56,095 bases of DNA, taken from assembly GCA_946638615.1 (NCBI GenBank), contig CAMPBO010000004.1, positions 1 through 56,095 on the forward strand, read 5' to 3'. A program made the translations under genes and the position numbers. How positions within the stretch are numbered: position 1 is the first letter of the stretch; each line of letters opens with the position of its first letter. Shown one piece after another: positions 2,300-55,501 of this stretch. The stretch comes from an uncultured Candidatus Saccharibacteria bacterium. Lineage in GTDB: Bacteria > Patescibacteriota > Saccharimonadia > Saccharimonadales > Saccharimonadaceae. Under the pieces are notes generated by a model. The model was not told the DNA's origin, ran no database searches, and saw only the letters and a program-made list of their open reading frames with translations.

Positions 2300-3214
2300 A
2301 TGGATAATAATAAAGTTATGATTGTGGGGACTGGTAATGTAGGGGCAAGTATTGCCTTTGCTTTGATGAATCAACGAACCGCAGTGAATGAAATTATACT
2401 TACTGATATTATTGCGAAAGATGCTGAAGGTGAAGCGATGGATCTTCGGGATGCACTCGCAGTGGCGCCAAGTTATGTTAAGATTAGTAACGGAACCTAT
2501 AAAGATGCTAAAGATTGCGATGTGGTGGTGGTTACAGCGGGGGCGGCGCAGAAGCCTGGTGAATCGCGAATGGATTTGCTCAAAAAAAATGTGAATATTC
2601 TAAAGGGCATGATAGAACAAATTATGGCAAGTGGTTTTGACGGGATATTTCTCGTAGTAACAAACCCGATGGATGTTTTGACATATTATACGGCGAAATT
2701 TTCGGGGCTTCCGACTGAGAGAGTGATTGGTTCGGGTACGGTACTCGATTCGGCGAGACTTAGAGCGAGGATTGCGGATTATCTAAATGTTAATCCTAAG
2801 TCGGTGCATGCCTATCAAATTGGTGAACATGGTGATACCGAACTTACGGTTTGGTCGCGAGCAGATTTGGGTGGACAAAAGATTTCTGAAATGTTGCCAG
2901 AAGAAACAAGAAAGGGGATTTCGGATTTTGTACGCAACGAGGCATATGCGATTATCGAAAAGAAAGGTGCGACCTATTACGGAATAGCAACCTGCGTGGC
3001 TCAGATTTTGAACTGTATTTTAAATGATGAGATGCGAGTGCTTTCAGTATCATCATATGATCCGTTTTCAGGAGTGTGTTTTGGTTTTCCGTCGGTAGTG
3101 GGGCGAGAAGGCATAATTCGACGATTGGATATAAAATTATCCGAAAACGAAGGTATAGAACTGCAAAAGTCAATAAACGCTATCAAAAAAGCAATAGATT
3201 CTGTTAAAATATAA
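2300..3214 (+). CDS. ldh: L-lactate dehydrogenase
   Basis: 304 residues. NAD-dependent reduction of pyruvate to L-lactate, the end step of homolactic fermentation. The Rossmann motif GTGNVG lies at residues 11-16. The substrate-specificity loop reads GAAQKPGESR, with Gln where malate dehydrogenases carry Arg, which favours lactate over malate. The catalytic His is in IGEHGDTE and the substrate-binding Arg region is SGTVLDSARLR. Its own promoter and a good ribosome site (aagggtgg) precede the start. DUF2207 follows after 2 nt, so the two are probably co-transcribed, though no functional link is evident. Confidence 0.95.
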   Translation: MDNNKVMIVGTGNVGASIAFALMNQRTAVNEIILTDIIAKDAEGEAMDLRDALAVAPSYVKISNGTYKDAKDCDVVVVTAGAAQKPGESRMDLLKKNVNILKGMIEQIMASGFDGIFLVVTNPMDVLTYYTAKFSGLPTERVIGSGTVLDSARLRARIADYLNVNPKSVHAYQIGEHGDTELTVWSRADLGGQKISEMLPEETRKGISDFVRNEAYAIIEKKGATYYGIATCVAQILNCILNDEMRVLSVSSYDPFSGVCFGFPSVVGREGIIRRLDIKLSENEGIELQKSINAIKKAIDSVKI

Positions 3215-3216
3215 CT

Positions 3217-5079
3217 ATGAAAAAAATCAAAATAATAATTGGATTTATTGTAATGACAATAAATTTGCTTATTGTGATACCAGCTTTTGCAGACATAAAT
3301 GATTTTTATTACAAAGATTTTACTGGGGATTATTTCGTATCAAAAGATAACGAAGGTATTTCTCGTATGAAAGTTCGTGAAAGCCTTACGGCAGTTTTCC
3401 CTAATTTTATGCAAAATAAAGGGATCTGTCGATGGATCCCATTTACTAATCAAGATGGGGGAAATTTAGTCTTGCCGACTTTGTCCTGGAGCGATATTAG
3501 GTTAACGCGCAATGGTATAACGGAACCAATTTATAGTATCGAACGCGAAAAAGATTTTTATAGCGTGTGCACAGGGACTGATGACTATATACTGGGAGAG
3601 CAAACGTATGTGTTTGAATATGAATTTACCAAAGTAATAACCGAATTTGATATTGATGGACAAAAAATTCAGGAACTTTATTGGGATGCAAATGGAAACG
3701 GTTTTTTACAGGGTTTCAACTCAGTAAAAGCTAGGGTGCATTTTGAAAATTCAGAAATTCTTACGGATAATAATAAATGCTTTGTAGGTAAATATGGTGA
3801 AGATGGACAAAATAGATGTACAATTACAAAAATTTCAGATGGATTGGAATTTTCGGCTAAAGGGTTAACGCCGTATGAAAGTCTAACTTTTTATATAGAA
3901 GTGAAGGCAGGGAGTTTTGTGGTGCCAGGGCCAGAAGAAAATTATTTCTATATTATAGCAATAATAATAACTGGAGGATTTTGTTTACTTAGTATATTAT
4001 TAGCAATACGAAAATATTTGAACTTTCGTGAGAAAGCAAAGCAATATAAGTCAATTTTTGTAAAACCCGAATATCAACCAAATGATAAATATAGCTTGCC
4101 AGAAATGACAGAAATTTATCTTGGTAAGAAAAAAGACGTAAAAGTAGGAATGTTACTTGAATTAATAGTTAAGAAAAAAATTGAGTTAAGAAAGAGTAGG
4201 AAGTGGAGCTTTGTAGTAAAGGATTTAGATGGAGTGCGTCAGGAATATATTGATCTTTTGAGTATTTTGAACGATGGAATGCCAGTTAAAATAAATGACG
4301 AAATAAAAATCGAAAGGCACACCGCGAGCGGTCGTTTAATAAATTTAAAAAAATCAATGGATAAAAAAATTGCGAACGACTTATGGGGCGATGGATTAGT
4401 GGAAAAAGATTATAAACTTGGTAATATTCGTGAAATTAAAATAGTAAATATAATTGCGACTTCAATAATATTCTCACTAATAATTTGGATATTATGGATT
4501 TTTATAGTTGATTTCATTTATGATGTTATGCTAGATAATGGCTTTACGGGTAAAATGGTATTTTCAGAAGAAAGTTCATTTATATCTATACCTATATTTT
4601 TCGTAACAACCTTTGTTTGCATACTATTCTTTAGCTTATCGACAAGATATAAATGGCACACTTTAAAAGGAATGGAGGCTTCACGTTATATGGAAGGATT
4701 AAAGCTGTATATCGAAATGGCGGAAACAGAAAGAATAAAAATGCTTCAGAGCTTGAAGGGGGTAAGTACTTCGGCGGATGGAATTGTGAAAATTTATGAA
4801 AAATTATTGCCATATGCAGCAATATTTGGTCTAGAAGAAAGCTGGATAAACGAAATGAAAAAATATTGTGAAGTTTCTAATATCGAGGAACCAGACTATT
4901 TGTTGGTAGGATTTGCGGTGCACGATATAGTAAGAAGCGTACACAACGCGAGCTCATACATAACAGCTTCTTCTGTAATGGCTAATTCTGGAGGTAGTTT
5001 TTCTTCTGGGTTTTCTGGCGGGGGAGGTGGAGGATTTTCTGGCGGGGGAGGCGGCGGAGGCGGTGGTTGCGGTCGATAA
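3217..5079 (+). CDS. DUF2207 family membrane protein with Gly-rich tail
   Basis: 620 residues. An N-terminal signal peptide (MKKIKIIIGF... ending AFA/D, about residue 25) is followed by an exported beta-rich DUF2207 domain to about residue 240. Then come a transmembrane helix near 245-268, a cytoplasmic stretch, a pair of helices near 410-440 and 450-475, and a cytoplasmic region. The C-terminus is almost pure Gly/Ser/Phe (SGGGGGGFSGGGG type) and ends GGCGR. This layout, including the poly-Gly end, is characteristic of the widespread but functionally undefined DUF2207/YciQ-like proteins. It begins 2 nt after ldh. The 129-nt gap after it contains only the promoter of the next gene. Confidence 0.85.
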   Translation: MKKIKIIIGFIVMTINLLIVIPAFADINDFYYKDFTGDYFVSKDNEGISRMKVRESLTAVFPNFMQNKGICRWIPFTNQDGGNLVLPTLSWSDIRLTRNGITEPIYSIEREKDFYSVCTGTDDYILGEQTYVFEYEFTKVITEFDIDGQKIQELYWDANGNGFLQGFNSVKARVHFENSEILTDNNKCFVGKYGEDGQNRCTITKISDGLEFSAKGLTPYESLTFYIEVKAGSFVVPGPEENYFYIIAIIITGGFCLLSILLAIRKYLNFREKAKQYKSIFVKPEYQPNDKYSLPEMTEIYLGKKKDVKVGMLLELIVKKKIELRKSRKWSFVVKDLDGVRQEYIDLLSILNDGMPVKINDEIKIERHTASGRLINLKKSMDKKIANDLWGDGLVEKDYKLGNIREIKIVNIIATSIIFSLIIWILWIFIVDFIYDVMLDNGFTGKMVFSEESSFISIPIFFVTTFVCILFFSLSTRYKWHTLKGMEASRYMEGLKLYIEMAETERIKMLQSLKGVSTSADGIVKIYEKLLPYAAIFGLEESWINEMKKYCEVSNIEEPDYLLVGFAVHDIVRSVHNASSYITASSVMANSGGSFSSGFSGGGGGGFSGGGGGGGGGCGR

Positions 5080-9097: not shown

Positions 9098-9114
9098 ATT
9101 TAGCATAAGTATGA

Positions 9115-9120
9115 TAATAT
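9115..9120 (+). promoter_or_regulatory. -10 element abutting the start of the 1018-aa gene
   Basis: TGATAATAT with the hexamer TAATAT at 9115-9120, only 6 nt before the ATG at 9127. Transcription would start at or within a base of the start codon, predicting a leaderless mRNA. Confidence 0.6.
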
Positions 9121-9126
9121 AGGTGT

Positions 9127-12100
9127 ATGGATGATGGGCTAAAAAAAAATGACCCTTATCGTGGGATGCAGTCTGGCGTAGATGAAATAAAGCCTGGTTT
9201 TTTGCATAATAATAAATCGGCAGAACGCAAAGAAACTGAATCTAAAGGAGCGGCTAGTGATTTAAAATCAGCAGAGAATACTGCTGGAGCCGAAGTGCCT
9301 ACACGATTTGAAACTGGGCTTACTGATATTAGACGAAATGAGGAAGATGCAGGAGGACTTTATTCAGGTGTAGGACGTAAATCTGAAAAAAGAAAGCAGA
9401 GGGGTTTCAAGTGGATTCTAAAAAAACGTGGACCAATTATAGCAATACTAATGCTGATTTTTGGCACTGGCGGAATTATGGGGGCAACGCAATTATTCCA
9501 ACCGTTTAGTTTATTGGCGCAATTTCAAGAAACTTTCAATTCGATGCATACTTCGGCAAATATGCGATCAGATACGTTTTTTAGAATGCAGATGGATACG
9601 GGACGATATAAAAATCCGATTCAAAACAAATGGTCTGTTTTCAGTGGTGAGACTTTTAAAATAACTTCTAGCCAACGAACTAGACTAGCAGCTCAAGGGA
9701 TAGAGTACGACGGCAATTATGATGGTACTGGTATGCGAGTGCTTAAATTTGATGATGGTACTGGAAAAATTCAAATTGTAACAGCCGATGCTGATACTGC
9801 TAATAAAATAGGTAACGGTGCGGTAGAGTTTAGAAAAATTTACGCAGAAAATGCGGATTTTTTCAATGGTTATAATAAGGGCTCAATGACTTGGCGAGGA
9901 GCAATTACGAATTGGTTCGGAACGATGACGGCGAAATTTTTAAGTAGTAATAAAATTACGCGAAATATGTTCAAAGATTTCCAGAAAAAAGTGGCCGAAT
10001 CAAACGATGGTAATACGCGACGAGTAGCACAGGAAATTATGGCGCGGGGTACGGAAGAAATTAGTGAGGGAGGAATGAAAGTGATTGGCGCCGAAGAGGA
10101 AAAAATAGAAGGCGAGGACGGTAAATTAAAAGGCACGGGCAAATATAATACAAACGAAAATGCGCCAGAGCCTACTAAATCTAGACGAATGGACTTCCAG
10201 ACTGCCAGTGCTGAAAATGGTTATAGTACGGTTGCGAACAAATTAAATGACATTGGAGGAAAGGTACAAAAAGGGGCAAACGTTGCTTGTACGATTATGA
10301 ATACGATGGGAGCCATCAGCTTGTTAGTCACGGCAAGTGAGGCATTACAGATTATTAATTTAACTACGGCATATTTTGAAACAATTGATAAGGTGAAAGC
10401 TGGATATGGCGATGATGCACCAATTCATGTTCTAACTAATGCTTTAAACACGAATACCGTTAACACTAATGCCACATTGGTTTTTAAAGAAAAAGCAGGC
10501 ACGGCTGGTGATGATACGGGTCTGGAAACGGATTATATTAAAACTAATAAAACTGCTATGCAAGCTAGTGGAATTACGGCGTTGTATGGTGGTGGGGCAA
10601 TAAACCCGAACGACCCGAGTGTGCTAAGTTTTAACCCAACGGCGATGATTAATAAAGTGGTTGGTGGTATTGGAGTTAGCATGGACGCATTCAAAGGTTG
10701 TGCTTTGACAAAAATTGTTTCAAACGCCATAACAACAACCACTGATGCTTTGAGTATTGCGGCTTGTCTTGCGGGCGTGTTGGGCGCTACAGTGACGTTC
10801 GGTGCTACGATAGTAGCTGGATGTGGCGAATTGGCTTTTAAGACTTTAAAAGGAATTGGTTGGGGAATCATAATTGGAGTTACAGTTGCGACGGTTATTT
10901 CTACCATTACGCCTGTCGTTGCCAATATGTTGTCGCGTGATTTGATTTCAGAACTTGGTGGCGAAGATTTGGGTAATGCGTTAGCTTCGGGTGCAAACAT
11001 GTATCTTGGTAATACACATCGTTGGAATGGTGGGTCGTTATCGAATTATAAGCAATATAAGGATTTTGCGATCGCCCAGAATCAAGTGATTGCGGAAAAT
11101 GCGAAATATGAGCGACAAACAAAAAGCCCGTTTGACCCCACGTCAAAATATACATTTATGGGAACTTTGCTTACGCAGATGATGAGCTTTTTATCAGTTC
11201 ATTCTTTGATGAGCACGATTTCAGCTACTAGTTCGGTTGTCTCGTCTTCAATTGTGGCGATGAGTCCGACAGCTGCCGCATATGATATTTCTAAAGATTT
11301 ACCAAATTTAGAAGATTATGAAAAAACTTGTCCATACCTTGCTTCTATTGGGGCAGTGGGAGATGCATATTGTAATCCTTATGCTATTACTGATATGTCT
11401 ACGATGGATTATGACCCAGGCGAAGATGTGATTGCCAAGCTAGCATCGGAGGGAAATTTTCTAGACGAGACGAAAGATTTTACTAATAGTAATGGTGAAG
11501 TTGTAAGCAATGTAATTATAAATGGTAATTCTGATTTAGCAAAATATATTTTGTTTTGCGATAATCGTACTTCAGCGTTTGGGATTGCTGATCAAAATAT
11601 TGTAAACGAAGTGAGTAGTTGGGGGTCGATTGATACGGGTTCGAGTTTTGTCAACAGTATGGTCAATTCAGCAATTGGCGCGGTGCCAGTTATAGGCGAT
11701 GTGATTGACGTTGTCAGTAACCAGATATCATTGGAGAATGTAGGCTATGTGAGTGGCGAATCCTGTGTGGCTGGGAATAACGTGGACGCGGCGTCCTCGC
11801 CAAACTGGGAAAAAGCAAAATATTATCAACGCTTTATCGAGGATCAATCTCTGGCTGAATCGATGGGCGTAATCGAAGAGTCAGCGGTGACAGCATACTT
11901 AAATGATTATTACGAAAAAAATCCTTTGGATAATTCTTACGAGGGGATGTTGGCGCGATATTCTGGGCTTGATAAAGAGACGGTGATTGCTTTACTTGAT
12001 TTGATTGACTACGGTAATTACATTGCTTCCTATCATCCAGAAGAAAGGTATGCTTTTGGCGCGCCAGCGGTAAAAATTGAAGAAGAAATGAATTTTAATA

Positions 12101-12183
12101 GTGAGAATATTGCTGGAAATTATTATGTCCTACTAGACAAAATCATTTTTTTCGATGTACGAAACCGTAGTTTTGCAGTATAA
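9127..12183 (+). CDS. Large multi-pass membrane protein, function unknown
   Basis: 1018 residues. The first 100 are hydrophilic and end in a strongly basic patch (KSEKRKQRGFKWILKKRG) directly before a hydrophobic helix at about 103-124. Further hydrophobic stretches are near 386-410, 543-572, 577-601 and 680-713, separated by large hydrophilic segments. Several Cys lie in the second half (TCPYLAS, DAYCNP, GESCVAGN), suggesting exposed disulfide-bonded parts. A run of Gly/Ala-rich helices around 540-600 is reminiscent of polytopic channel subunits of secretion systems, but I cannot match it to VirB6 or any family. It ends 7 nt before pheS, whose -10 overlaps its stop codon. Confidence 0.75.
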   Translation: MDDGLKKNDPYRGMQSGVDEIKPGFLHNNKSAERKETESKGAASDLKSAENTAGAEVPTRFETGLTDIRRNEEDAGGLYSGVGRKSEKRKQRGFKWILKKRGPIIAILMLIFGTGGIMGATQLFQPFSLLAQFQETFNSMHTSANMRSDTFFRMQMDTGRYKNPIQNKWSVFSGETFKITSSQRTRLAAQGIEYDGNYDGTGMRVLKFDDGTGKIQIVTADADTANKIGNGAVEFRKIYAENADFFNGYNKGSMTWRGAITNWFGTMTAKFLSSNKITRNMFKDFQKKVAESNDGNTRRVAQEIMARGTEEISEGGMKVIGAEEEKIEGEDGKLKGTGKYNTNENAPEPTKSRRMDFQTASAENGYSTVANKLNDIGGKVQKGANVACTIMNTMGAISLLVTASEALQIINLTTAYFETIDKVKAGYGDDAPIHVLTNALNTNTVNTNATLVFKEKAGTAGDDTGLETDYIKTNKTAMQASGITALYGGGAINPNDPSVLSFNPTAMINKVVGGIGVSMDAFKGCALTKIVSNAITTTTDALSIAACLAGVLGATVTFGATIVAGCGELAFKTLKGIGWGIIIGVTVATVISTITPVVANMLSRDLISELGGEDLGNALASGANMYLGNTHRWNGGSLSNYKQYKDFAIAQNQVIAENAKYERQTKSPFDPTSKYTFMGTLLTQMMSFLSVHSLMSTISATSSVVSSSIVAMSPTAAAYDISKDLPNLEDYEKTCPYLASIGAVGDAYCNPYAITDMSTMDYDPGEDVIAKLASEGNFLDETKDFTNSNGEVVSNVIINGNSDLAKYILFCDNRTSAFGIADQNIVNEVSSWGSIDTGSSFVNSMVNSAIGAVPVIGDVIDVVSNQISLENVGYVSGESCVAGNNVDAASSPNWEKAKYYQRFIEDQSLAESMGVIEESAVTAYLNDYYEKNPLDNSYEGMLARYSGLDKETVIALLDLIDYGNYIASYHPEERYAFGAPAVKIEEEMNFNSENIAGNYYVLLDKIIFFDVRNRSFAV

Positions 12184-12184
12184 T
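12179..12184 (+). promoter_or_regulatory. -10 element for pheS overlapping the upstream stop codon
   Basis: TATAAT at 12179-12184 contains the TAA stop of the preceding gene and lies 6 nt before the pheS ATG at 12191, predicting a leaderless transcript. It is also the main argument for choosing 12191 as start. Confidence 0.6.
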
Positions 12185-12190
12185 ATAGGC

Positions 12191-13147
12191 ATGCAAGATC
12201 TTCAGAAACTAAAAGATGAATTAAAAGCAATAAATGGTGAATATGCTGGGATTCGTGATGTTCCAGTGGAAGAGCGGGCGGAATTTGGTCGTAAGCTAAA
12301 TGAAAAAAAGCAATCTATTCTTGCGAAAATCGCAGAAGTTGAGCAAGCAGCAATTGATGAAATGGTCGAGCCAATTGATGTGACGGCTTGGTCAGGAGTA
12401 AATGAACTGATACCAGAATTTTATTCGGTTACGGCGGGTTCAAAACACCCTTTAATGACAGAACTTGATCGAGTAATTGATATCTATCAAATGATGGGTT
12501 TTGATGTGATAGAATCACGGCAACTTGACGATGAATTTCATATGTTTGATTCTTTGAATTTTCCAAAAGAGCATCCAGCGCGGGACGGCTACGATACTTT
12601 TAGAACCGAGGAAGGATTAATCCCGCCAGCGCATACTTCAACGATGCAGCATCGGGTATTAAAGAATTTCAAGTCGAATTTAGATGAGGGTAAAGCGATT
12701 GCGGTAGTGGTTCCTGGTCGAGTGTTTAGAAATGAAGATGTGGATGCGACGCACGAGCATACATTTTATCAGTGTGAGGGGGTGTATGTTTCGGAAACTT
12801 GTACGCTTGGTGATATGTTGGGGATTTTGCGGGAATTTTTCGAGAAGTACTATGAGCAAAAATTAAATATTCGGACTCAACCAGGGTATTTTCCATTCAC
12901 TGAACCAAGTCTAGAATTTATGATCGAAAAGCCAAAGGCTCTCGGCGGGAAGAAAGGTGATTTTTTGGAAATGCTTGGATGTGGGATGATTCATCCAAAT
13001 GTGTTAAAGATGGCTGGAATTGATCCTGTGAAGTATCATGGGTTTGCTTGGGGCGGTGGAATTGACCGTCTAGTTATGCTAAGATACGGGCTAGAAGATG
13101 TGAGAAACTTTGAATCGGGTAATCTTAATTTCTTGAGGGAGTTTTAA
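12191..13147 (+). CDS. pheS: Phenylalanyl-tRNA synthetase alpha subunit
   Basis: 318 residues from the start chosen here; the ORF track begins 12 codons earlier at 12155, but that part lies inside the upstream gene and across the -10 element. It is the class II catalytic subunit of the alpha2beta2 enzyme that charges tRNA-Phe. Motif 2 is in HTSTMQHRVL and GRVFRNEDVDATHEHTF, motif 3 is GFAWGGGIDRLVMLRYG near the C-terminus. The N-terminal coiled coil (about residues 1-75) that grips the tRNA is present. pheT begins at the next base after the stop, so the two subunits are translated together. Confidence 0.95.
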   Translation: MQDLQKLKDELKAINGEYAGIRDVPVEERAEFGRKLNEKKQSILAKIAEVEQAAIDEMVEPIDVTAWSGVNELIPEFYSVTAGSKHPLMTELDRVIDIYQMMGFDVIESRQLDDEFHMFDSLNFPKEHPARDGYDTFRTEEGLIPPAHTSTMQHRVLKNFKSNLDEGKAIAVVVPGRVFRNEDVDATHEHTFYQCEGVYVSETCTLGDMLGILREFFEKYYEQKLNIRTQPGYFPFTEPSLEFMIEKPKALGGKKGDFLEMLGCGMIHPNVLKMAGIDPVKYHGFAWGGGIDRLVMLRYGLEDVRNFESGNLNFLREF

Positions 13148-15556: not shown

Positions 15557-15579
15557 TAATAAAACGTTTATGTTAGAAT
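15551..15579 (+). promoter_or_regulatory. Promoter of ftsE
   Basis: TTGTAA (15551-15556, overlapping the pheT stop), 17-nt spacer, extended -10 TGTTAGAAT with the hexamer at 15574-15579. Only 7 nt separate it from the ftsE ATG, so a leaderless mRNA is predicted. Confidence 0.65.
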
Positions 15580-15586
15580 TAGAGTT

Positions 15587-16345
15587 ATGATATTGCTCGA
15601 TTCTGTCATAAAAAAATATCCTGGAGACAATGAGCCAGCGCTTGATTCGGTATCGCTACATATTGAACCAAATGAATTTGTATTTTTAGTAGGAAAATCT
15701 GGTGCTGGTAAATCTACGCTTATTAAAATGATAACTAAGGAAGAAATTCCTGATTCTGGTAAAATTATTGTTGGCGGTATAGACCTTGATTACGTAAAAA
15801 AACGTGATATTCCTGGGTATCGAAGAAGGCTAGGGGTTGTTTTTCAAGATTTTAAATTGTTACCTAGACGAACAGTATATGAAAATGTTGCTTTCGCACT
15901 TGAAATTGCTGGCATGAGCGGTAAAGAAATTCGTAAAACGGTGCCAAAAGTACTTGAGTTAGTAGATCTACTAGATCAGGCAAAAAAATTCCCAGATCAA
16001 TTGTCGGGTGGTCAGCAACAACGAGTGTCGATTGCACGTTCGGTGGCAAGACAGCCGAAGATTTTGATTGCCGATGAGCCGACTGCTAATCTAGATAAGT
16101 TGACTACCGAGGAAATTATTGGGCTTCTAAAAAAGATTAATGATTTCGGGACAACTATACTTGTCACGACGCATAACGAAAATATAGTAAATACTTTGCA
16201 AAAGCGCGTAGTTACTTTAAAAGATGGCAAGATAGTGAATGATCAAAAAAGCCATGGCATCTATGAGCTAAGCGGAGCGAAAATTCCTGTACGTAGAGTG
16301 CAAACTCCAGGTCATGCTTTGAAACAGAAAAGAAGGGTAGCTTAA
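15587..16345 (+). CDS. ftsE: Cell-division ATP-binding protein FtsE
   Basis: 252 residues, ABC ATPase that pairs with FtsX at the division septum and transmits ATP hydrolysis through the membrane to a periplasmic or extracellular hydrolase. Walker A is GKSGAGKST near residue 37, the Q-loop is VVFQDFKLL, the signature is LSGGQQQR near residue 140 and Walker B is ILIADEPTANLD, followed by the H-loop TTHN. A basic tail of about 30 residues extends past the usual FtsE end. The TAA stop overlaps the ftsX ATG (TAATG), implying coupled translation. Confidence 0.95.
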   Translation: MILLDSVIKKYPGDNEPALDSVSLHIEPNEFVFLVGKSGAGKSTLIKMITKEEIPDSGKIIVGGIDLDYVKKRDIPGYRRRLGVVFQDFKLLPRRTVYENVAFALEIAGMSGKEIRKTVPKVLELVDLLDQAKKFPDQLSGGQQQRVSIARSVARQPKILIADEPTANLDKLTTEEIIGLLKKINDFGTTILVTTHNENIVNTLQKRVVTLKDGKIVNDQKSHGIYELSGAKIPVRRVQTPGHALKQKRRVA

Positions 16346-18702: not shown

Positions 18703-18709
18703 TTTATGG

Positions 18710-18715
18710 TAAAAT
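18710..18715 (+). promoter_or_regulatory. -10 element of the ctpA-like gene
   Basis: TGGTAAAAT with the hexamer at 18710-18715, 6 nt before the ATG at 18722; leaderless transcript predicted. Confidence 0.55.
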
Positions 18716-18721
18716 AAAATA

Positions 18722-19915
18722 ATGAATAAAAATAATTGGCAAGAGAAGAAAATTAATCTTGGTTCGGCTATTATTATGTCAGCTGTACTAGCAATAATAG
18801 GTGGAGTAATTGGGGCAAATTGGGAAAATTGGTTTAGTAATTTTGCCCCTTATCTTGGGTTTCAAAATCGAGCAACATCTATCGTTGATTGGTCACCACT
18901 CGATGAAGTTTACAATCAATTGGCTTCCTCATATAATGGCGAAATCTCAACAAGCGATATAATTGAGGGGGCCAAAAAAGGAATGGCGGAATCTTTGGGG
19001 GATATTTACACGACATATATGGGGGCAACTGAGGCGGCGGATTTTTATGATGATTTACATGGAAATGTTGGTTCAGGTATTGGTATTGAAATGGGGCTTC
19101 GTGACGGGTATGTAAGAGTGCTCAGAACTTTGCCTGATAATCCTGCTCGTGAAGCGGGGATTTTAGCTGGTGATATTTTGTATAAAGTCGATGATGAGGA
19201 AATTTATGCTTTATCGGTAGAAGAAATTGCTAAGAAAGTTCGCGGTGAAACTGGCTCGGAGATAATGGTAACAATCATAAGGGATGGAGCAGAGAAATCT
19301 TTCACGATGAAGCGCGAGGCGATAAATAATGTTTCGGTTTATGTGGAATATGAAGACAAAACGGCTATTATAACGGTAACAAGATTTGATAATGATACTG
19401 GAACAAAAGTACAAAAGATAGCGCAGGATTTTATAGGTAAGGGGATCAACAAAGTTATTTTAGATTTGCGAAGTAATGGTGGGGGTTATGTATCGGCGGC
19501 TCAAGATTTGATGAGTTTGTGGTTAGACGGAGAAAAAAGTTTAATCCAAAAATCTAAACATCTCGGCAATAGTATCTCGTCGACATCTTCTGGTAAGGCC
19601 ATTTTAAAAAATATAAAAACGATTGTGCTTGTAAATGGTACTACGGCTTCGGCGTCAGAAATCGTAGCTGGAGCTTTGCAAGATTATGGTAAAGCAACAA
19701 TTGTCGGTGAAAAAACTTATGGGAAAGGTGTGGTCCAAACCTTGTATCAACTTTCGGGAAATTCACTGCTTAAAGTCACAACAGCAGAATGGTATACTCC
19801 AAAAGAACGCTCTATTAATAAAGTTGGCATTACTCCAGATATCGAAGTTGAAAGAAGTTATGAAGATATTAATGCGATGCGCGATCCACAAATGGATAAG
19901 GCAAAGGAAATATAG
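18722..19915 (+). CDS. ctpA: S41 family C-terminal processing protease (CtpA-like)
   Basis: 397 residues. One N-terminal membrane anchor (about 15-35), then a PDZ domain (about 110-195: GSGIGIEMG... PAREAGILAGD), then the tail-specific protease core with ILDLRSNGGGYV, the catalytic Ser region TTASASEIVAGAL and the Lys region GEKTYGKG, ending with the typical YTPKERSINKVGITPDI. Such Ser/Lys proteases trim C-termini of exported proteins and often control murein hydrolases, which fits its place after the CHAP hydrolase. The stop overlaps the GTG start of the next gene (TAGTG). Confidence 0.93.
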   Translation: MNKNNWQEKKINLGSAIIMSAVLAIIGGVIGANWENWFSNFAPYLGFQNRATSIVDWSPLDEVYNQLASSYNGEISTSDIIEGAKKGMAESLGDIYTTYMGATEAADFYDDLHGNVGSGIGIEMGLRDGYVRVLRTLPDNPAREAGILAGDILYKVDDEEIYALSVEEIAKKVRGETGSEIMVTIIRDGAEKSFTMKREAINNVSVYVEYEDKTAIITVTRFDNDTGTKVQKIAQDFIGKGINKVILDLRSNGGGYVSAAQDLMSLWLDGEKSLIQKSKHLGNSISSTSSGKAILKNIKTIVLVNGTTASASEIVAGALQDYGKATIVGEKTYGKGVVQTLYQLSGNSLLKVTTAEWYTPKERSINKVGITPDIEVERSYEDINAMRDPQMDKAKEI

Positions 19916-21724: not shown

Positions 21725-21753
21725 ATTATAGCATACTTTTATTATATTGTCAA
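21725..21753 (-). promoter_or_regulatory. Consensus sigma-70-type promoter
   Basis: On the minus strand: TTGACA (21748-21753), 17-nt spacer ending TGC, TATAAT (21725-21730). This is a full match to both hexamers plus the extended -10, the best promoter in the window. Confidence 0.9.
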
Positions 21754-21841
21754 TGATGATTATGATTAAAAGTCTTAATGAAAGGTGCAAACAAAAATAT
21801 TTTGACGGGGACAGAGATGTTGTGGTTCGAGACAATTATGA

Positions 21842-21847
21842 TATAAT
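21842..21847 (+). promoter_or_regulatory. -10 element of leuS
   Basis: TGATATAAT with the hexamer at 21842-21847, 7 nt before the ATG at 21855; leaderless transcript predicted. It rules out the longer ORF start at 21747. Confidence 0.6.
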
Positions 21848-21854
21848 ATGCCTT

Positions 21855-24134
21855 ATGGATAGATACGAACCGCTAAAAATTGAAGAAAAATGGCAAAATA
21901 TTTGGGAAAAAGAGAAACCTTTCCACGCTGTCGAGAAAGAAGGTGCACCGAAGATGTTTCTTGCGGAGATGTTCCCTTATCCATCAGGAGCAGGACTACA
22001 TGTGGGCCATGTGCGGAACTTTACAATTGTGGATGTGTTAACGCGGTTTTATGAGCAACAGAGACTAAATGTTCTTCGGCCGTTTGGATACGATACTTTT
22101 GGCTTGCCAGCAGAAAATTATGCCATTAAAACTGGTACGGCGCCACAAGACGTGACAAGGGTCAACATTGCAAATTTTAGAAAACAAGCCAAACGGTTGG
22201 GATATGCAATTGACTGGGATAGAGAGATTAATACATCAGATCCAGAATATTACAAATGGACACAATGGTGTTTTCTGCAACTATACAAAAAAGGGTTAGC
22301 GTATCAAAAAGAATCATACCAATGGTGGTGTCCAGAAGATCAAACAGTTTTAGCTAATGAGCAGGTTGAGGGTGGAAAATGTTGGCGCTGCGGGCATGAA
22401 GTCGAAAAGAAAAAAATGAAACAGTGGTTTTTTAAGATTACAGAGTACGCGGATGAATTGCTTAAAGATATTGATGCGCTTGAATGGCCAGAAAAAATTA
22501 AAACGATGCAACGAAATTGGATTGGACGTTCGGCGGGAGCGGAGATTGATTTTGAAGTAATGAATGGGCGCAGAATCACTGTTTTTACTACTCGACCAGA
22601 CACAATTTATGGAGCGACGTTTTTAGTGTTAGCTCCAGAGTATCAAGGGCTAGATTTTATAGTTTCAGATGATGCCAGAGAAACTGTAAATAAATACAAA
22701 GCTGATGCCTTAAAAAAATCAGAAATTGAAAGACAAGAAAATAGGGAAAAGACAGGGGTATTTACGGGGGCTTATGCAATTAATCCAGCAACGAAAGAAA
22801 AAATTCCGATTTATGTGGCAGATTATGTACTTGCTGGCTATGGTACAGGTGCGATTATGGCAGTGCCAGCGTATGATGAGCGTGATCGTGAATTTGCTGA
22901 AAAATTTGATTTGCCAATAGTTGAAGCGGAGTTGTGTGACCGTGATTTATTTGGTACTCCAAAAATCACTTACAAAATGCGCGATTGGCTAATCAGCCGT
23001 CAACGTTATTGGGGTTGTCCAATTCCAATTGCTTACGACAAAGATGGTAATCCGTACCCTATTCCTGAGGAACAATTACCTGTTTTAATCCCAGAAGTAG
23101 AAGATTATAAACCAGATCATACTGGGCGTTCAGCTCTTGCAAAAGCAGAAAATTGGTTAAAAGTCGAGATTCCAGTGAAAGACCCGAAGACTGGTGAAAT
23201 TCATATGGAAGAAATGACGCGAGAGACTGATACTCTTGATGGATATGCTTGCTCTTCATGGTATTTATGGCGTTATGCTTCACCGCGAGATAATAAACAC
23301 GCTTGGAATCCAGAAGCGATTAAATATTGGGAGCCAATTGATTATTATTGTGGTGGCGATCATGCGGTGGCACATTTACTTTATATCCGTTTTTGGTGCA
23401 AATTCTTTGCGGATGAAGGGTATTTACCGTTTAGAGAACCAATTAAGCGGTTGCTTTATAATGGTTATATCAATGCACCAGATGGGAAGAAAATGTCTAA
23501 GTCTAAAGGCAATGTGATTGATCCACTAGATGTAATAAACGACGGCTATGGGGCAGACACGCTTAGAACTTACGAGATGTTTATTGGTCCATATGATCAG
23601 GATGCGGCTTGGGATCCACGGTCGGTTGGTGGCGTATATCGCTTCTTGAATCGCTGCTACAATCTGTTAAATAACATTATAGATACGGACAACGTAGTGG
23701 TTCGAAACAAAACAATTAAAAAAGTAACAGAAGATATCCATCGTTATAATTTCAATACTGCTGTAGCGGCGTTGATGGAATATGTAAACGAACTCTATAA
23801 AAATGGTGCCAATAAAACTGACCTGATTGTACTCGCGAAATTATTAAAACCTTTTGCCCCACATCTAGCGTCTGAGATGCTAGAAAAATTAGACTCTGAT
23901 GACGAGTGGCCAAAATGGAATGATAAATATTTGATAAGCGATACAGTTGAGATAATAGTACAAGTAAATGGCAAGTTGCGTAGTAAAATATCTATCTCGC
24001 AAGACCATTTGGAGAACGAAGAGATGATAATTGATTTGGCACTTAACGATGAAAAAATCAAAAAATATATTTCTAGCGGTGTCAAGAAAACAATCTTTGT
24101 TAAAAAAGCTAAATTAGTGAATATTGTTATATAG
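21855..24134 (+). CDS. leuS: Leucyl-tRNA synthetase
   Basis: 759 residues from the start at 21855; the 36 extra residues of the track ORF span the promoter. Class I synthetase: HIGH region YPSGAGLHVGHVRNF, zinc-like knuckle WWCPEDQ...CWRCG, CP1 editing domain with TTRPDTIYGA and GTGAIMAVPAYDERD, and KMSKS as KKMSKSKGNVIDP. The protein is short for LeuRS (usually 800-870): after VPAYDERDREFAEKFDLPIV the sequence passes almost directly to TYKMRDWLISRQRYWG, so the segment of about 50 residues normally linking editing and catalytic domains (the G-x-x-NSG part) is missing. A methyltransferase gene follows without a gap. Confidence 0.95.
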   Translation: MDRYEPLKIEEKWQNIWEKEKPFHAVEKEGAPKMFLAEMFPYPSGAGLHVGHVRNFTIVDVLTRFYEQQRLNVLRPFGYDTFGLPAENYAIKTGTAPQDVTRVNIANFRKQAKRLGYAIDWDREINTSDPEYYKWTQWCFLQLYKKGLAYQKESYQWWCPEDQTVLANEQVEGGKCWRCGHEVEKKKMKQWFFKITEYADELLKDIDALEWPEKIKTMQRNWIGRSAGAEIDFEVMNGRRITVFTTRPDTIYGATFLVLAPEYQGLDFIVSDDARETVNKYKADALKKSEIERQENREKTGVFTGAYAINPATKEKIPIYVADYVLAGYGTGAIMAVPAYDERDREFAEKFDLPIVEAELCDRDLFGTPKITYKMRDWLISRQRYWGCPIPIAYDKDGNPYPIPEEQLPVLIPEVEDYKPDHTGRSALAKAENWLKVEIPVKDPKTGEIHMEEMTRETDTLDGYACSSWYLWRYASPRDNKHAWNPEAIKYWEPIDYYCGGDHAVAHLLYIRFWCKFFADEGYLPFREPIKRLLYNGYINAPDGKKMSKSKGNVIDPLDVINDGYGADTLRTYEMFIGPYDQDAAWDPRSVGGVYRFLNRCYNLLNNIIDTDNVVVRNKTIKKVTEDIHRYNFNTAVAALMEYVNELYKNGANKTDLIVLAKLLKPFAPHLASEMLEKLDSDDEWPKWNDKYLISDTVEIIVQVNGKLRSKISISQDHLENEEMIIDLALNDEKIKKYISSGVKKTIFVKKAKLVNIVI

Positions 24135-24638
24135 ATGCAGTTAATTTTAGTTCTTCACAACATTAGATCAGTCTATAATGTAGGTGCGATTATTCGAACT
24201 GCAGAAGGTTTTGGCGTTTCAAAGATTATTTTATCTGGGTATACGCCAAGAGTACACGACATTAATTTATTGCCTCATTTAAGAATGAAGCTAGATAAAG
24301 AAATCCACAAAACTGCGCTGGGAGCGGAGGATATGCTGGATATTTATTCGTCTGGTGATATATTTTGCGATTTGAAAAAACTAAAAGCACAGGGGTGGGA
24401 AATTGTGGGGCTTGAAAATAATATAAATAATTCAAAGCTTATACAGATAAATAGCCCTAGCTTAAAAGCTGATTTATCAGATAAAATCGTTTTAATTTTA
24501 GGTGAAGAGGTTAATGGTATAGATTATTCATTTTATGATTTAATTGATCAGTTTTTAGAAATACCAATGCGTGGGCAAAAAGAATCTTTTAACGTGTCGG
24601 TAGCTGCGGGCATTGCAATATATGCATTAACTAATTAG
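24135..24638 (+). CDS. SpoU/TrmH-family RNA 2'-O-methyltransferase
   Basis: 167 residues, a stand-alone SPOUT domain. Motif 1 is HNIRSVYNVGAIIRTAEG with the catalytic Arg, motif 2 is VLILGEEVNGI, and motif 3 is IPMRGQKESFNVSVAAGIAIY, which forms the trefoil knot that binds S-adenosylmethionine. It lacks the N-terminal L30e-like substrate domain of RlmB, so the target could be a tRNA (TrmL/TrmH) or rRNA. It begins at the base after the leuS stop and is probably translated with it. The 214 nt that follow contain no convincing gene. Confidence 0.88.
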   Translation: MQLILVLHNIRSVYNVGAIIRTAEGFGVSKIILSGYTPRVHDINLLPHLRMKLDKEIHKTALGAEDMLDIYSSGDIFCDLKKLKAQGWEIVGLENNINNSKLIQINSPSLKADLSDKIVLILGEEVNGIDYSFYDLIDQFLEIPMRGQKESFNVSVAAGIAIYALTN

Positions 24639-24837
24639 TTTATCTTGGATAATGGTGTCCTGTTTGAGCAAAAATCAAATAATTTTTTACAGAGTCAGTA
24701 TAATTTTATTGCATATGACCAAAAGATATATGAAGACTTTATCCTAGCTTTTGTGGATTATGTTAAAGTTTTAGCTGCTTTTTATTGTGGTGTGCCGATT
24801 AGTGCAGCTTTATTTATCATTTATGGTGATGGCGACG

Positions 24838-24846
24838 TGCTATAAT
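24838..24846 (+). promoter_or_regulatory. Extended -10 promoter of the glutaredoxin gene
   Basis: TGCTATAAT at 24838-24846, a perfect extended -10, 6 nt before the ATG at 24853; leaderless transcript predicted. Confidence 0.7.
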
Positions 24847-24852
24847 TGATCT

Positions 24853-25050
24853 ATGATTAAAGTATATACTACGCCAACCTGTGCTTATTGCCATGCTTTA
24901 ATGGAGTGGCTGGATGAGCGGGGTGTGGAATATGTTGAAGTGGACGCGACAAAAGAGCCTAATATTTCTGCTGTGCCAGTTACGGAAATAAATGGCAAAA
25001 GAATTGTTGGATTTGACCGTCCTGCTATCAAAAGAGCCTTGCGAAGATAA
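24853..25050 (+). CDS. Glutaredoxin/NrdH-like thiol reductase
   Basis: 65 residues, a minimal thioredoxin fold. The redox motif CAYC lies at residues 11-14 after the first strand (MIKVYTTPT), the cis-Pro is in SAVPVTEI and the conserved GFD loop (IVGFDRPAIKRAL) near the end is typical of NrdH-type glutaredoxins. It likely supplies electrons to an oxidised enzyme, possibly the ribonucleotide reductase encoded at 47 kb; this link is inference, since the genes are not adjacent. Confidence 0.85.
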   Translation: MIKVYTTPTCAYCHALMEWLDERGVEYVEVDATKEPNISAVPVTEINGKRIVGFDRPAIKRALRR

Positions 25051-25285: not shown

Positions 25286-25783
25286 ATGGCTAGTAATCGA
25301 CATTTAGGTAGAGTAATTGTTTTGCAGAGTCTCTATGAATACGAATTGAGAACTCAGGCAAAAGATCCTGGCGTCGATCTAAACATTATCATTGCTAAAA
25401 ATATTGAACCTTATGAAAAGGCTTTGGGCGATACGGAGTTTGTTTATAATTTAGCACGTAAGGTAGCCGATAATTTTGTTACACTTGACGCTGCGCTTGC
25501 TCCGATGGCTCCTGAATGGCCAATAAGTTCGATCGCGGCAATTGATCGAAATGTTTTAAGGATGGGGCTATATGAGCTTTCGGAATGTAGAGACACTATT
25601 CCACCAAAAGTGGCAATCAATGAAGCTGTTGAGCTCGCAAAAGCTTTCGGCTCGGATAATTCTTCTAAATTCGTGAACGGTGTGCTAGGAACAGCTTATA
25701 GAGAGCTCGGAATCGCCGAAGAGAATAACAATGAATCAAATAACAAACCCGCAAGTGAGGCAAAAGAACAAAGCGGTAACTGA
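25286..25783 (+). CDS. nusB: Transcription antitermination factor NusB
   Basis: 165 residues. The start [18 protein letters not shown] and the central [50 protein letters not shown] are diagnostic for NusB, the all-helical RNA-binding factor that joins NusE (S10) on the boxA of rRNA leaders. A Ser/Asn/Glu-rich tail of about 25 residues follows; its coding sequence overlaps the start of the next gene in another frame. Confidence 0.94.
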
Positions 25784-42645: not shown

Positions 42646-43314
42646 TTAAAAAGTACGGATTTTATCTAGTGGGAACAAACGTAATACAACTGGCCCAACA
42701 ATACGACAAAAAGGTATTGTCCCTAACCCATTTCGTGAATCCCAAGAAGAAGAACCCTCACGATTATCTCCAGAGACGAACAATTCACCATTTGGAACGA
42801 TTAGGTCGACCTCTCCAGAAGTATATTCTTTAGGACCATCAGTTTCTGAAATACGCCAGTCATTATCATATATAAAACCTTCGGGATGTTCATTGTTGTA
42901 AATTGTCATGATGCCATCTTTTACCACGACGCGTTCGCCCGGAAAAGCAATCACACGTTTAATGATATATTGGTCATTAATATTTGAAGGTACCGAACAT
43001 GTCATAGGATTAGAAACGCCCGCCGTTTTATATTCTTTGACTTTTTCTTCGTCTTCATTAAGAAAAACAATTATTTGCCCACGCTCAGGAATATATTCTT
43101 GACCAAGAAAATGCGACCACGACACAGCAGCTCGATTAACAATAACTCTGTCATCATCGTGCAGCGTGTTTTCCATACTCCCACCGACAACATTATATGA
43201 ACGATAAACGAAAGTGTTTAAAAATAAGGTACCTAAAACAATCGCACCAATAAATCCTCCTAGGCTCAAAAAATCTTTTAATAGAGGGTGCTTTTGAAAA
43301 AATTTTGGTTCCAT
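42646..43314 (-). CDS. lepB: Signal peptidase I
   Basis: 222 residues. One N-terminal transmembrane helix (about 15-37) is followed by the catalytic Ser in GGSMENTLHDDDRV, the catalytic Lys in YIIKRVIAFPGE and box E, FVSGDNREGSSSWDSRNGLG. The enzyme cleaves signal peptides of Sec-exported proteins outside the membrane. A Cys-containing insertion (TAGVSNPMTCSVPS) stands before the Lys box. The -10 lies 8 nt before the ATG, so the mRNA is probably leaderless. Confidence 0.95.
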   Translation of the reverse strand: MEPKFFQKHPLLKDFLSLGGFIGAIVLGTLFLNTFVYRSYNVVGGSMENTLHDDDRVIVNRAAVSWSHFLGQEYIPERGQIIVFLNEDEEKVKEYKTAGVSNPMTCSVPSNINDQYIIKRVIAFPGERVVVKDGIMTIYNNEHPEGFIYDNDWRISETDGPKEYTSGEVDLIVPNGELFVSGDNREGSSSWDSRNGLGTIPFCRIVGPVVLRLFPLDKIRTF

Positions 43315-43320
43315 ATTTAT

Positions 43321-43366
43321 TTATTATAGCATTTTTAAGCTTAATTTAAAATATTTGCTATAATAT
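43321..43366. promoter_or_regulatory. Divergent extended -10 pair (lepB and 43374 gene)
   Basis: Minus-strand TGCTATAAT (43323-43331) and plus-strand TGCTATAAT (43356-43364) face away from each other. Both sit 8-9 nt before their start codons. Confidence 0.75.
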
Positions 43367-43373
43367 ATATATT

Positions 43374-44156
43374 ATGGTTGATTATGTTTTAGCACGTAAA
43401 TCTCGTAATATCGCAAGTACACTAGTACACGTTCTTCTTAATTTATTATTAGGAGTGGGGGCTGTACTGATCACAGTATTGTCGGGCAACCCTGCGCCAG
43501 GGATTTTACTAGTCCTGGTATCAAAATGGCGAATTTTTGCTGTTAGAGCTAGATACTTCTTTTTAAACCTAAAAGCCAATCTAGTTGACATAATTGTAGG
43601 TGTTAGTATTGTGCTTTTAGCTTATTATGCTGGTTCGGCTTTTTTGCCAATTGATTTTATACTAATGATTATATATTCGATATGGTTATTAATTATAAAA
43701 CCTCTTTCGTCAGAAAATGCTGCTTTAGCTCAATCTTTAATTGCTGTTTTTTTAGGTATGTCTGCGTCAGTGTTTTTATCTGCCAATTTGAATGCTTTAG
43801 TAATTGTGCTTTTGGCCTTTTTGATTGGTTATGCGGCCAGTCGGCACATATTGATTCAGGGGAGTGACAAGGATTTTACTTTAACTACTTTTGTTTGCGG
43901 GTTGATTTTTGCAGAAATAGCATGGCTGTGCCATTCTTGGGCAATTATATATACTTTTGGCTCGACTGGGATTAGAATTCCTCAACTTGCAATAATTTTA
44001 ACAATTTTTGCGTTTATGTATAATTATGCGCGACAAGCAATGATAAGATACCAAGATGATTTCAGGTTCAAACATATCTTAGGCCCCATAATTTTCGGTG
44101 CCGTGCTTGTTAGTATTATTATAATTTGGTTTAGCAATCCAATTTTCAATATATAA
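43374..44156 (+). CDS. Polytopic membrane protein, function unknown
   Basis: 260 residues with about eight hydrophobic helices covering almost the whole length (near 15-45, 65-80, 85-105, 115-135, 140-155, 168-190, 200-220 and 232-255) and short loops. The only charged clusters are the N-terminus (DYVLARKSRN), KWRIFAVRARYFFLNLK and YARQAMIRYQDDFRFKH. I recognise no family. It stands 10 nt before the HtrA protease gene, which has a strong ribosome site, so the two are probably co-transcribed. Confidence 0.72.
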   Translation: MVDYVLARKSRNIASTLVHVLLNLLLGVGAVLITVLSGNPAPGILLVLVSKWRIFAVRARYFFLNLKANLVDIIVGVSIVLLAYYAGSAFLPIDFILMIIYSIWLLIIKPLSSENAALAQSLIAVFLGMSASVFLSANLNALVIVLLAFLIGYAASRHILIQGSDKDFTLTTFVCGLIFAEIAWLCHSWAIIYTFGSTGIRIPQLAIILTIFAFMYNYARQAMIRYQDDFRFKHILGPIIFGAVLVSIIIIWFSNPIFNI

Positions 44157-45943: not shown

Positions 45944-46958
45944 TTTTAGTTAGTTCATGTATTAAGTCGTCAATATCTCCGTTCATTGCGGTTGCAATAT
46001 TTGACCTTGAATAATGGATGCGGTGGTCAGTGATGCGATCTTGAGGAAAATTATATGTACGAATTTTTTCGCTACGATCACCTGTTCCGATTAGAGATTT
46101 GCGGGCTTCAGAAGCCTTTTCGCGTTCTTCTTCTTTTTTCTTTTCGAGAAGACGCGTACGTAATACGTTCATGGCTTTAACTCGGTTTTGTTGTTGAGAG
46201 CGTTCATCTTGCATTGCTACTACGATACCAGTGGGAAGATGTGTAATACGAACAGCCGAATCGGTTGTGTTAACACCTTGACCACCATGGCCACCAGAAC
46301 GATAAATATCTATACGCAAGTCTTCGGGCTTAATTTCAAGATCTTGCTCGGAAGCCTCTGGAAGAACTGCTACAGTCACTGTTGAAGTATGGATTCGTCC
46401 TTGAGACTCAGTAACTGGCACGCGTTGAACTCGATGCACGCCGCCTTCAAACTTGAGTAGACCATAGGCGTTCTCGCCACTGATTTTAAAAATAACTTCT
46501 TTAATGCCACCAGCTTCGTTCTGGTTTTCAGAAATAAGTTCAGCTTTTAGATTATGATTTTCGGCATATTTTTGATACATTCGATAAAGCTCACCGGCAA
46601 AAAGGCTCGCTTCATCGCCACCAGCGCCAGCTCGAATTTCAATCAAGGCCGGCTTGTCGTCAGCGGGATCATGCGGGATCAGCAACTCTTCTAACTCATC
46701 TTTTGCAGTTGCTATTTGAGATTTTAGATTTTCAATATCTTCTTTTGCGATTTCACCTAATTCAGGATCATTTATCAATAATTCAGCTTCTTTAAGACTG
46801 GCAGACATTCGTTTTATTTTTTGATTTAAATCGATTATCAAGCGAAGAACATTTGCGCGTTTCGACTTAGTAGCAAAATCTGGGTCGCTATAAGCGTCTG
46901 GCTTAGATAAAAACTTTTCAATATCTTGTAACTCTGTTTCGTATTTTTGTAAATCCAT
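45915..46958 (-). CDS. prfA: Peptide chain release factor 1
   Basis: 347 residues. The GGQ loop is [20 protein letters not shown], and the codon-recognition region [18 protein letters not shown] has the P-x-T motif of RF1, which reads UAA and UAG. The extended coiled-coil N-terminal domain is present. The -10 (TATAAT, 46969-46974 on the minus strand) lies 10 nt before the ATG, leaving almost no leader. Confidence 0.96.
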
Positions 46959-46977
46959 GATATAATTAATTATACCA
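46958..46977. promoter_or_regulatory. Overlapping opposed extended -10 elements (prfA / tRNA-Val)
   Basis: TATAATTAATTATA (46961-46974) is a perfect palindrome. The plus-strand TGATATAAT points toward tRNA-Val and the minus-strand TGGTATAAT toward prfA, so the two -10 elements are face to face with only 2 nt between the hexamers. Confidence 0.6.
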
Positions 46978-46983
46978 TAACAT

Positions 46984-55272: not shown

Positions 55273-55281
55273 TGGTAAAAT
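55273..55281 (+). promoter_or_regulatory. Extended -10 promoter of rpmG
   Basis: TGGTAAAAT at 55273-55281, 10 nt before the ATG at 55292; a leader of only about 4 nt is predicted. Confidence 0.55.
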
Positions 55282-55291
55282 GAGTAGAGTT

Positions 55292-55501
55292 ATGGCAAAG
55301 AAGAATAATACTAAGCGCAAGTTGGTTGGACTCGTTTCGGAAGAATCGGGTGTTCGTGCTTATTACACTAAGAAAAACACCATGAATACTCCTGATAAGT
55401 TAAGCCTTAAGAAATACGATCCAGTACTTCGAAAACATGTCTTATTTGTGGAGACCAAGAAAAACCTCGGCCGAAACGAAGTAAAAGAGAAAAAACGCTA
55501 A
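55292..55501 (+). CDS. rpmG: Ribosomal protein bL33, zinc-free form
   Basis: 69 residues from the second in-frame ATG; the track start at 55280 overlaps the -10. The core [35 protein letters not shown] matches L33 (YxTxKNxxNTPxxLxLKKYxPxxxKHxxxxE). The zinc Cys pairs of the standard form are absent (SEESG and DPVLR). A basic tail of about 15 residues follows. It is a single gene with its own terminator. Confidence 0.92.

Follow-up and report, generated by a model that had tools for sequence, protein, structure and literature searches.

Extended -10 elements close to start codons predict many leaderless mRNAs in an uncultured Saccharibacteria genome

The window, by which we mean the whole 56,095-nt stretch of DNA analysed here, is contig C4 of the 541-kb assembly of a tiny symbiotic bacterium, in 26 contigs with an estimated completeness of 71%. 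Its GC content is 38.7%, and Ca. Nanosyncoccus alces is among the nearest named relatives of the source genome, which are Candidatus Saccharibacteria from gut and rumen. The window carries a small glutaredoxin-like gene, and ahead of this and of a series of other genes a -10-like hexamer stands within a few bases of the ATG. The sites are as follows, with the gap given throughout as the number of nucleotides that separate the -10 hexamer from the ATG:

24838..24855, plus strand: glutaredoxin-like gene 24853-25050 (PF00462, 9.1e-11), TGcTATAAT at 24838-24846, gap 6, predicted +1 at the A of the ATG
3202..3219, plus strand: 620-aa gene, ATG 3217, extended -10 TGtTAAAAT, gap 6
9112..9129, plus strand: 1018-aa ORF, ATG 9127, weak extended -10 TGaTAATAT, gap 6
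12179..12193, plus strand: pheS, ATG 12191, -10 TATAAT without TG, gap 6, replacing a longer ORF start at 12155
15571..15589, plus strand: ftsE, ATG 15587, extended -10 TGtTAGAAT, gap 7
18707..18724, plus strand: ctpA (S41 peptidase), ATG 18722, extended -10 TGgTAAAAT, gap 6
21839..21857, plus strand: leuS, ATG 21855, TGaTATAAT, gap 7, replacing a longer TTG-started ORF at 21747
43312..43331, minus strand: lepB (signal peptidase), ATG 43314, extended -10 TGcTATAAT, gap 8
43356..43376, plus strand: 260-aa gene, ATG 43374, extended -10 TGcTATAAT, gap 9
46956..46977, minus strand: prfA, ATG 46958, extended -10 TGgTATAAT, gap 10, predicted near-leaderless
55273..55294, plus strand: rpmG (L33), ATG 55292, extended -10 TGgTAAAAT, gap 10, predicted near-leaderless

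An earlier note on this DNA had singled out ten of these genes, and the sequence bears it out: a -10-like hexamer at gaps 6-10 can be read ahead of the ATG in all ten, preceded by TGn in nine (pheS being the one without), with gaps inside the ranges that it gave, namely 6 (9127, 12191, 18722 and 24853), 7 (15587 and 21855) and 8-10 (43314, 43374, 46958 and 55292). The weakest hexamer of the ten, with four of six consensus bases, is that at 9127, whose ORF (9127-12183) lies directly ahead of pheS and has no Pfam match; the site at 3217, absent from the earlier list, makes a strong eleventh case. The claim that the pattern also corrects start codons holds for leuS, now placed at 21855, and for pheS, now at 12191, since the longer ORF is broken by an in-frame stop in 76 of 79 and 21 of 23 orthologues, respectively. 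Two spacers are of interest in their own right. The putative near-leaderless promoters of lepB and the 260-aa gene are divergent within a single 59-nt spacer (43315-43373), and the spacer between prfA (minus strand) and tRNA-Val (plus strand), at 46959-46983, holds the palindrome TATAATTAATTATA, a candidate -10 for both divergent genes that stands 17 nt ahead of tRNA-Val and 10 nt ahead of prfA.

Is this arrangement more than one would expect by chance? It is, by a very wide margin, and the statistical weight here rests on histograms that need no gene calls and on control gaps among 240 called genes. The earlier note had proposed a motif search with a histogram of distances to start codons, and this search, run both on the source genome and on a larger set, gives a sharp peak at gaps 6-7. 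In 263 kb of the source genome (around half of it, sampled in stretches), and with no gene prediction involved, TATAAT stands six nucleotides before an ATG 38 times and seven nucleotides before it 20 times, against about 8 times at each other gap; GTG and TTG have no peak at gaps 6-7, permuted hexamers before ATG have no comparable one, and neither does the loose TAnnnT, a pattern too common in AT-rich DNA. The larger set comprises 1.8 Mb of Saccharibacteria DNA (the window, the source genome and 80 relatives), in which TGnTA(T/A/C)AAT was counted ahead of open ATG frames, giving none at gaps 4-5, 216 at gap 6, 117 at gap 7 and about 20 at each of gaps 8-10, followed by a trough and then a separate bump at 28-33 nt, which represents leadered genes. 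Here too the peak belongs to ATG only, with none at GTG or TTG. A start of transcription about 7 nt past the -10 would account for the zero at gaps 4-5: were the two any nearer, the mRNA would lose the A of its AUG. Of the 240 called genes, an in-frame ATG preceded by a strong -10 at gaps 6-7 is found in 54, where control gap pairs give 1-8, and the identical -10 score applied to annotated regions of E. coli as a negative control finds none at gaps 4-15 in 91 genes. By this gap test about 20% of called genes, or at least about a fifth, would be of the leaderless type.

The best reading of these sites, and one that we hold with high confidence, is that they mark leaderless or near-leaderless starts from extended -10 promoters, with 5' ends that we infer from spacing. 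That the mRNAs would begin at or within a few bases of the ATG, as the earlier note predicted, draws support from the sharp 6-nt edge, the ATG-only peak, the base at -1, the spacing at rnpB and conservation among orthologues. RNA polymerase usually prefers a pyrimidine at -1 and a purine at +1. T or C stands at -1 in 94% of leaderless-type genes vs 48% of Shine-Dalgarno genes, and 47 of 57 leaderless-type genes have TG at the extended -10 position, with T and R ahead of it (TRTG; R at -4, T at -5), although these figures are not independent, as the start codons were picked partly by their -10 and Shine-Dalgarno signals. Genes with gaps of 8-10 would have leaders of 2-4 nt, while gaps of 8-12 would give 2-6 nt, and some sites are found in co-directional genes, where leadered read-through transcripts may coexist. 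Could it be that polymerase mostly starts 1-5 nt ahead of the ATG, so that very short 5' UTRs are the rule? The gaps of 8-10 at prfA, rpmG, lepB and 43374 would suit such a start, as would the A often seen at -1 in ctpA orthologues with gap 6, but gap 6 dominates and gap-7 sites keep their -1 pyrimidine (105 of 117), as would be expected if transcription began with the A of the ATG itself. We therefore think short leaders unlikely as the general case, and near-leaderless mRNAs are in any event functionally grouped with leaderless ones.

Orthologues tell much the same story. Across dozens of species the extended -10 of leuS, ftsE, ctpA and the glutaredoxin gene stays put as the remaining upstream sequence diverges, and in pheS the -10 is kept with more variable spacing. 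A -10 lies at gap 5-8 in 57 of 66 glutaredoxin orthologues (at exactly gap 6 in 55 of those 57) and in 49 of 50 ctpA orthologues, and no more than 12 nt from the ATG in all 46 ftsE orthologues. For leuS a near -10 is present in 73 of 79; none of these 73 has a Shine-Dalgarno site vs five of the six in which the -10 is distant or missing, an absence that is partly forced by overlap of the two signals. As judged from these upstream regions, leuS is a case in which a switch between two start modes is visible within one gene. No such element precedes the operon-internal neighbours pheT, ftsX and the gene at 25286, and pheT orthologues have GGAG-type Shine-Dalgarno sites instead. Two local variations were also seen. 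Many pheS orthologues (in L037, L023, L063, L036, L038 and L069) have in common TATAATATATATTATATATG at gap 11, which would give a short leader (about 5 nt) that is AT-rich and conserved. In the relatives L069, L016, L036 and L049 the extended -10 of the glutaredoxin gene lies within the SpoU methylase gene ahead of it, in the 3' end of the coding sequence (...GIAMYGIM..); in the window (24600-24852) the end of spoU has no extended -10, and the putative promoter is some 200 nt further down, adjoining the relocated glutaredoxin ATG.

Does the element act in DNA or in RNA? RNase P RNA is not translated, and as a rule transcription starts at its 5' end. In all 30 same-family genomes a TATAAT-like hexamer stands just upstream of rnpB, its last base 4-9 nt (mode 7) from the 5' end of the gene, an end that is given by a covariance-model match and is accurate to within a few nucleotides. 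The -35 region of the 57 leaderless-type genes has no clear -35 element and a weak preference for T. In RpoD the residues for reading the -10 and extended -10 are conserved (WW..RQ..T and IPVHMxETINK), and the sole full-length copy found (324 aa, L010:11791-12765) is without the N-terminal region 1.1 of the E. coli protein. This evidence is indirect, comprising the rnpB spacing, the TGn, the -1 pyrimidine and the RpoD residues, and it points to a promoter recognised by sigma factor and not to a signal in RNA. The contrary idea is that the TATAAT-like stretch works in the mRNA, as an AT-rich ribosome-binding or standby signal of the non-canonical kind found in Bacteroidetes, with transcription starting further upstream. 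The sites are indeed AT-rich and sit where a ribosome-binding site would, but the identical element and spacing ahead of an RNA that is never translated, the TGn at a sigma-specific position together with the -1 pyrimidine, the sharp 6-nt edge and the finding of no other conserved promoter upstream of the near -10 in orthologues make that idea very improbable.

How widespread is the extended -10 next to an ATG? Counts of TGNTATAATN6ATG vs its counterpart with a 14-nt gap run, per genome, at 84 vs 4 in the same genus, 18 vs 1.6 in other genera of the family, 5.5 vs 0.9 in other families of the order and class and 6.4 vs 1.3 in the rest of the phylum (first 156 sampled genomes, 121 of them higher and 11 lower), and since this strict pattern is not GC-corrected, the counts show presence and not gene fractions. 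On these counts the predicted architecture is phylum-wide and strongest in this Saccharibacteria genus. The view that AT-rich composition, or the general placing of promoters ahead of genes, has produced the motif as a by-product has next to nothing left in its favour: TATAAT is common in a window of 38.7% GC, but the gap specificity already refutes the idea, with its 38 and 20 occurrences over a background of about 8 per gap, no comparable peak for permuted words or other codons, and 1005 vs 197 for N6 vs N14 in 156 genomes from other classes of the phylum. We lean, though not strongly, towards a wider picture in which leaderless initiation from extended -10 promoters is phylum-wide and probably ancestral in Patescibacteria, has been amplified in this genus to a major share of transcription units, and has repeatedly been exchanged with the Shine-Dalgarno mode in the same gene. 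As a separate observation, a reduced symbiont genome among the relatives carries a SAM riboswitch (L002:17701-17797, minus strand).

What might all this mean for translation? We envisage that housekeeping-sigma promoters of the form TRTGnTATAAT, with little or no -35, would be placed for RNA polymerase to start at the A of the ATG or 1-4 nt ahead of it, and that the resulting leaderless mRNAs would need no Shine-Dalgarno site for their translation, with 70S ribosomes presumably binding the 5'-terminal AUG. A leadered Shine-Dalgarno mode would operate in the same genome, mainly for operon-internal genes and also for some genes that lead transcription units. The coexistence of two start modes, which the earlier note had also put forward, is upheld by the peak at 28-33 nt, by the Shine-Dalgarno sites of leadered and operon-internal genes and by the intact anti-Shine-Dalgarno of relatives: the 16S rRNA 3' end, read from same-order genomes, is GGATTACCTCCTTT, and no 16S gene was found in the source genome or its sampled genus. 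IF3 is encoded in relatives, and bS1 in this order is a shorter protein of some 350-390 aa with roughly four domains (for example, G000:C13:4347-5357). With the anti-Shine-Dalgarno intact and both IF3 and bS1 present, both start modes can therefore operate. We saw no sign in relatives of a ribosome dedicated to leaderless mRNA, bS1 and IF3 being present; loss of either factor was considered as an explanation and rejected, as both are encoded there. The ribosomal route proposed here for leaderless messages is modelled on other bacteria (reviewed in PMC9031893).

Much of bacterial diversity falls within the Patescibacteria, a phylum whose gene expression has hardly been studied. If leaderless genes do make up a fifth of the total, starts will be misplaced by gene callers that look for Shine-Dalgarno sites, and very short promoters could suffice in expression cassettes for those few Saccharibacteria that can be cultured. 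The group would also offer a natural test bed for asking how a single ribosome copes with both start modes and how genes pass from one to the other. A search of the literature, with preprints and most subscription papers outside it, gave no account of leaderless genes in Patescibacteria, Saccharibacteria or candidate phyla. Leaderless genes with a -10 next to the ORF are thus known elsewhere and seem to be undescribed in Patescibacteria.

The closest known system is that of Deinococcus-Thermus, in which leaderless genes with a '-10-motif adjacent to ORF' have been described (PMC12340547). There, as here, a -10 directly ahead of the start codon serves as the promoter with no need of a -35, Shine-Dalgarno genes coexist and start codons have been corrected, the share being about 30% of ORFs; the difference is that bases 1, 2 and 6 of the hexamer are irreplaceable in those high-GC genomes, whereas the AT-rich Saccharibacteria have a full TATAAT with TRTGn. 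The domain-wide scan in that 2025 paper left out symbiotic and unclearly classified species, and Patescibacteria were therefore probably unsampled. Leaderless genes of this build are also known from Actinobacteria and others, and Zheng et al. 2011 (PMC3160421) likewise read a TA signal some 10-12 nt before the start as leaderless and saw TG ahead of the Pribnow box in low-GC genomes, but their low-GC Firmicutes average 4% leaderless genes where these were detected vs about 20% here, and TM7 and Candidatus taxa go unmentioned. The genomes analysed with GeneMarkS-2 and StartLink+ (PMC9581028) resemble this one in mixing leaderless and Shine-Dalgarno starts, in a paper that mentions neither candidate phyla nor Patescibacteria. 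Mycobacteria (PMC4633059) share the mixed mode as well, the difference being that their leaderless transcripts were proven by RNA-seq and ribosome profiling, whereas those of Saccharibacteria are predicted from DNA sequence.
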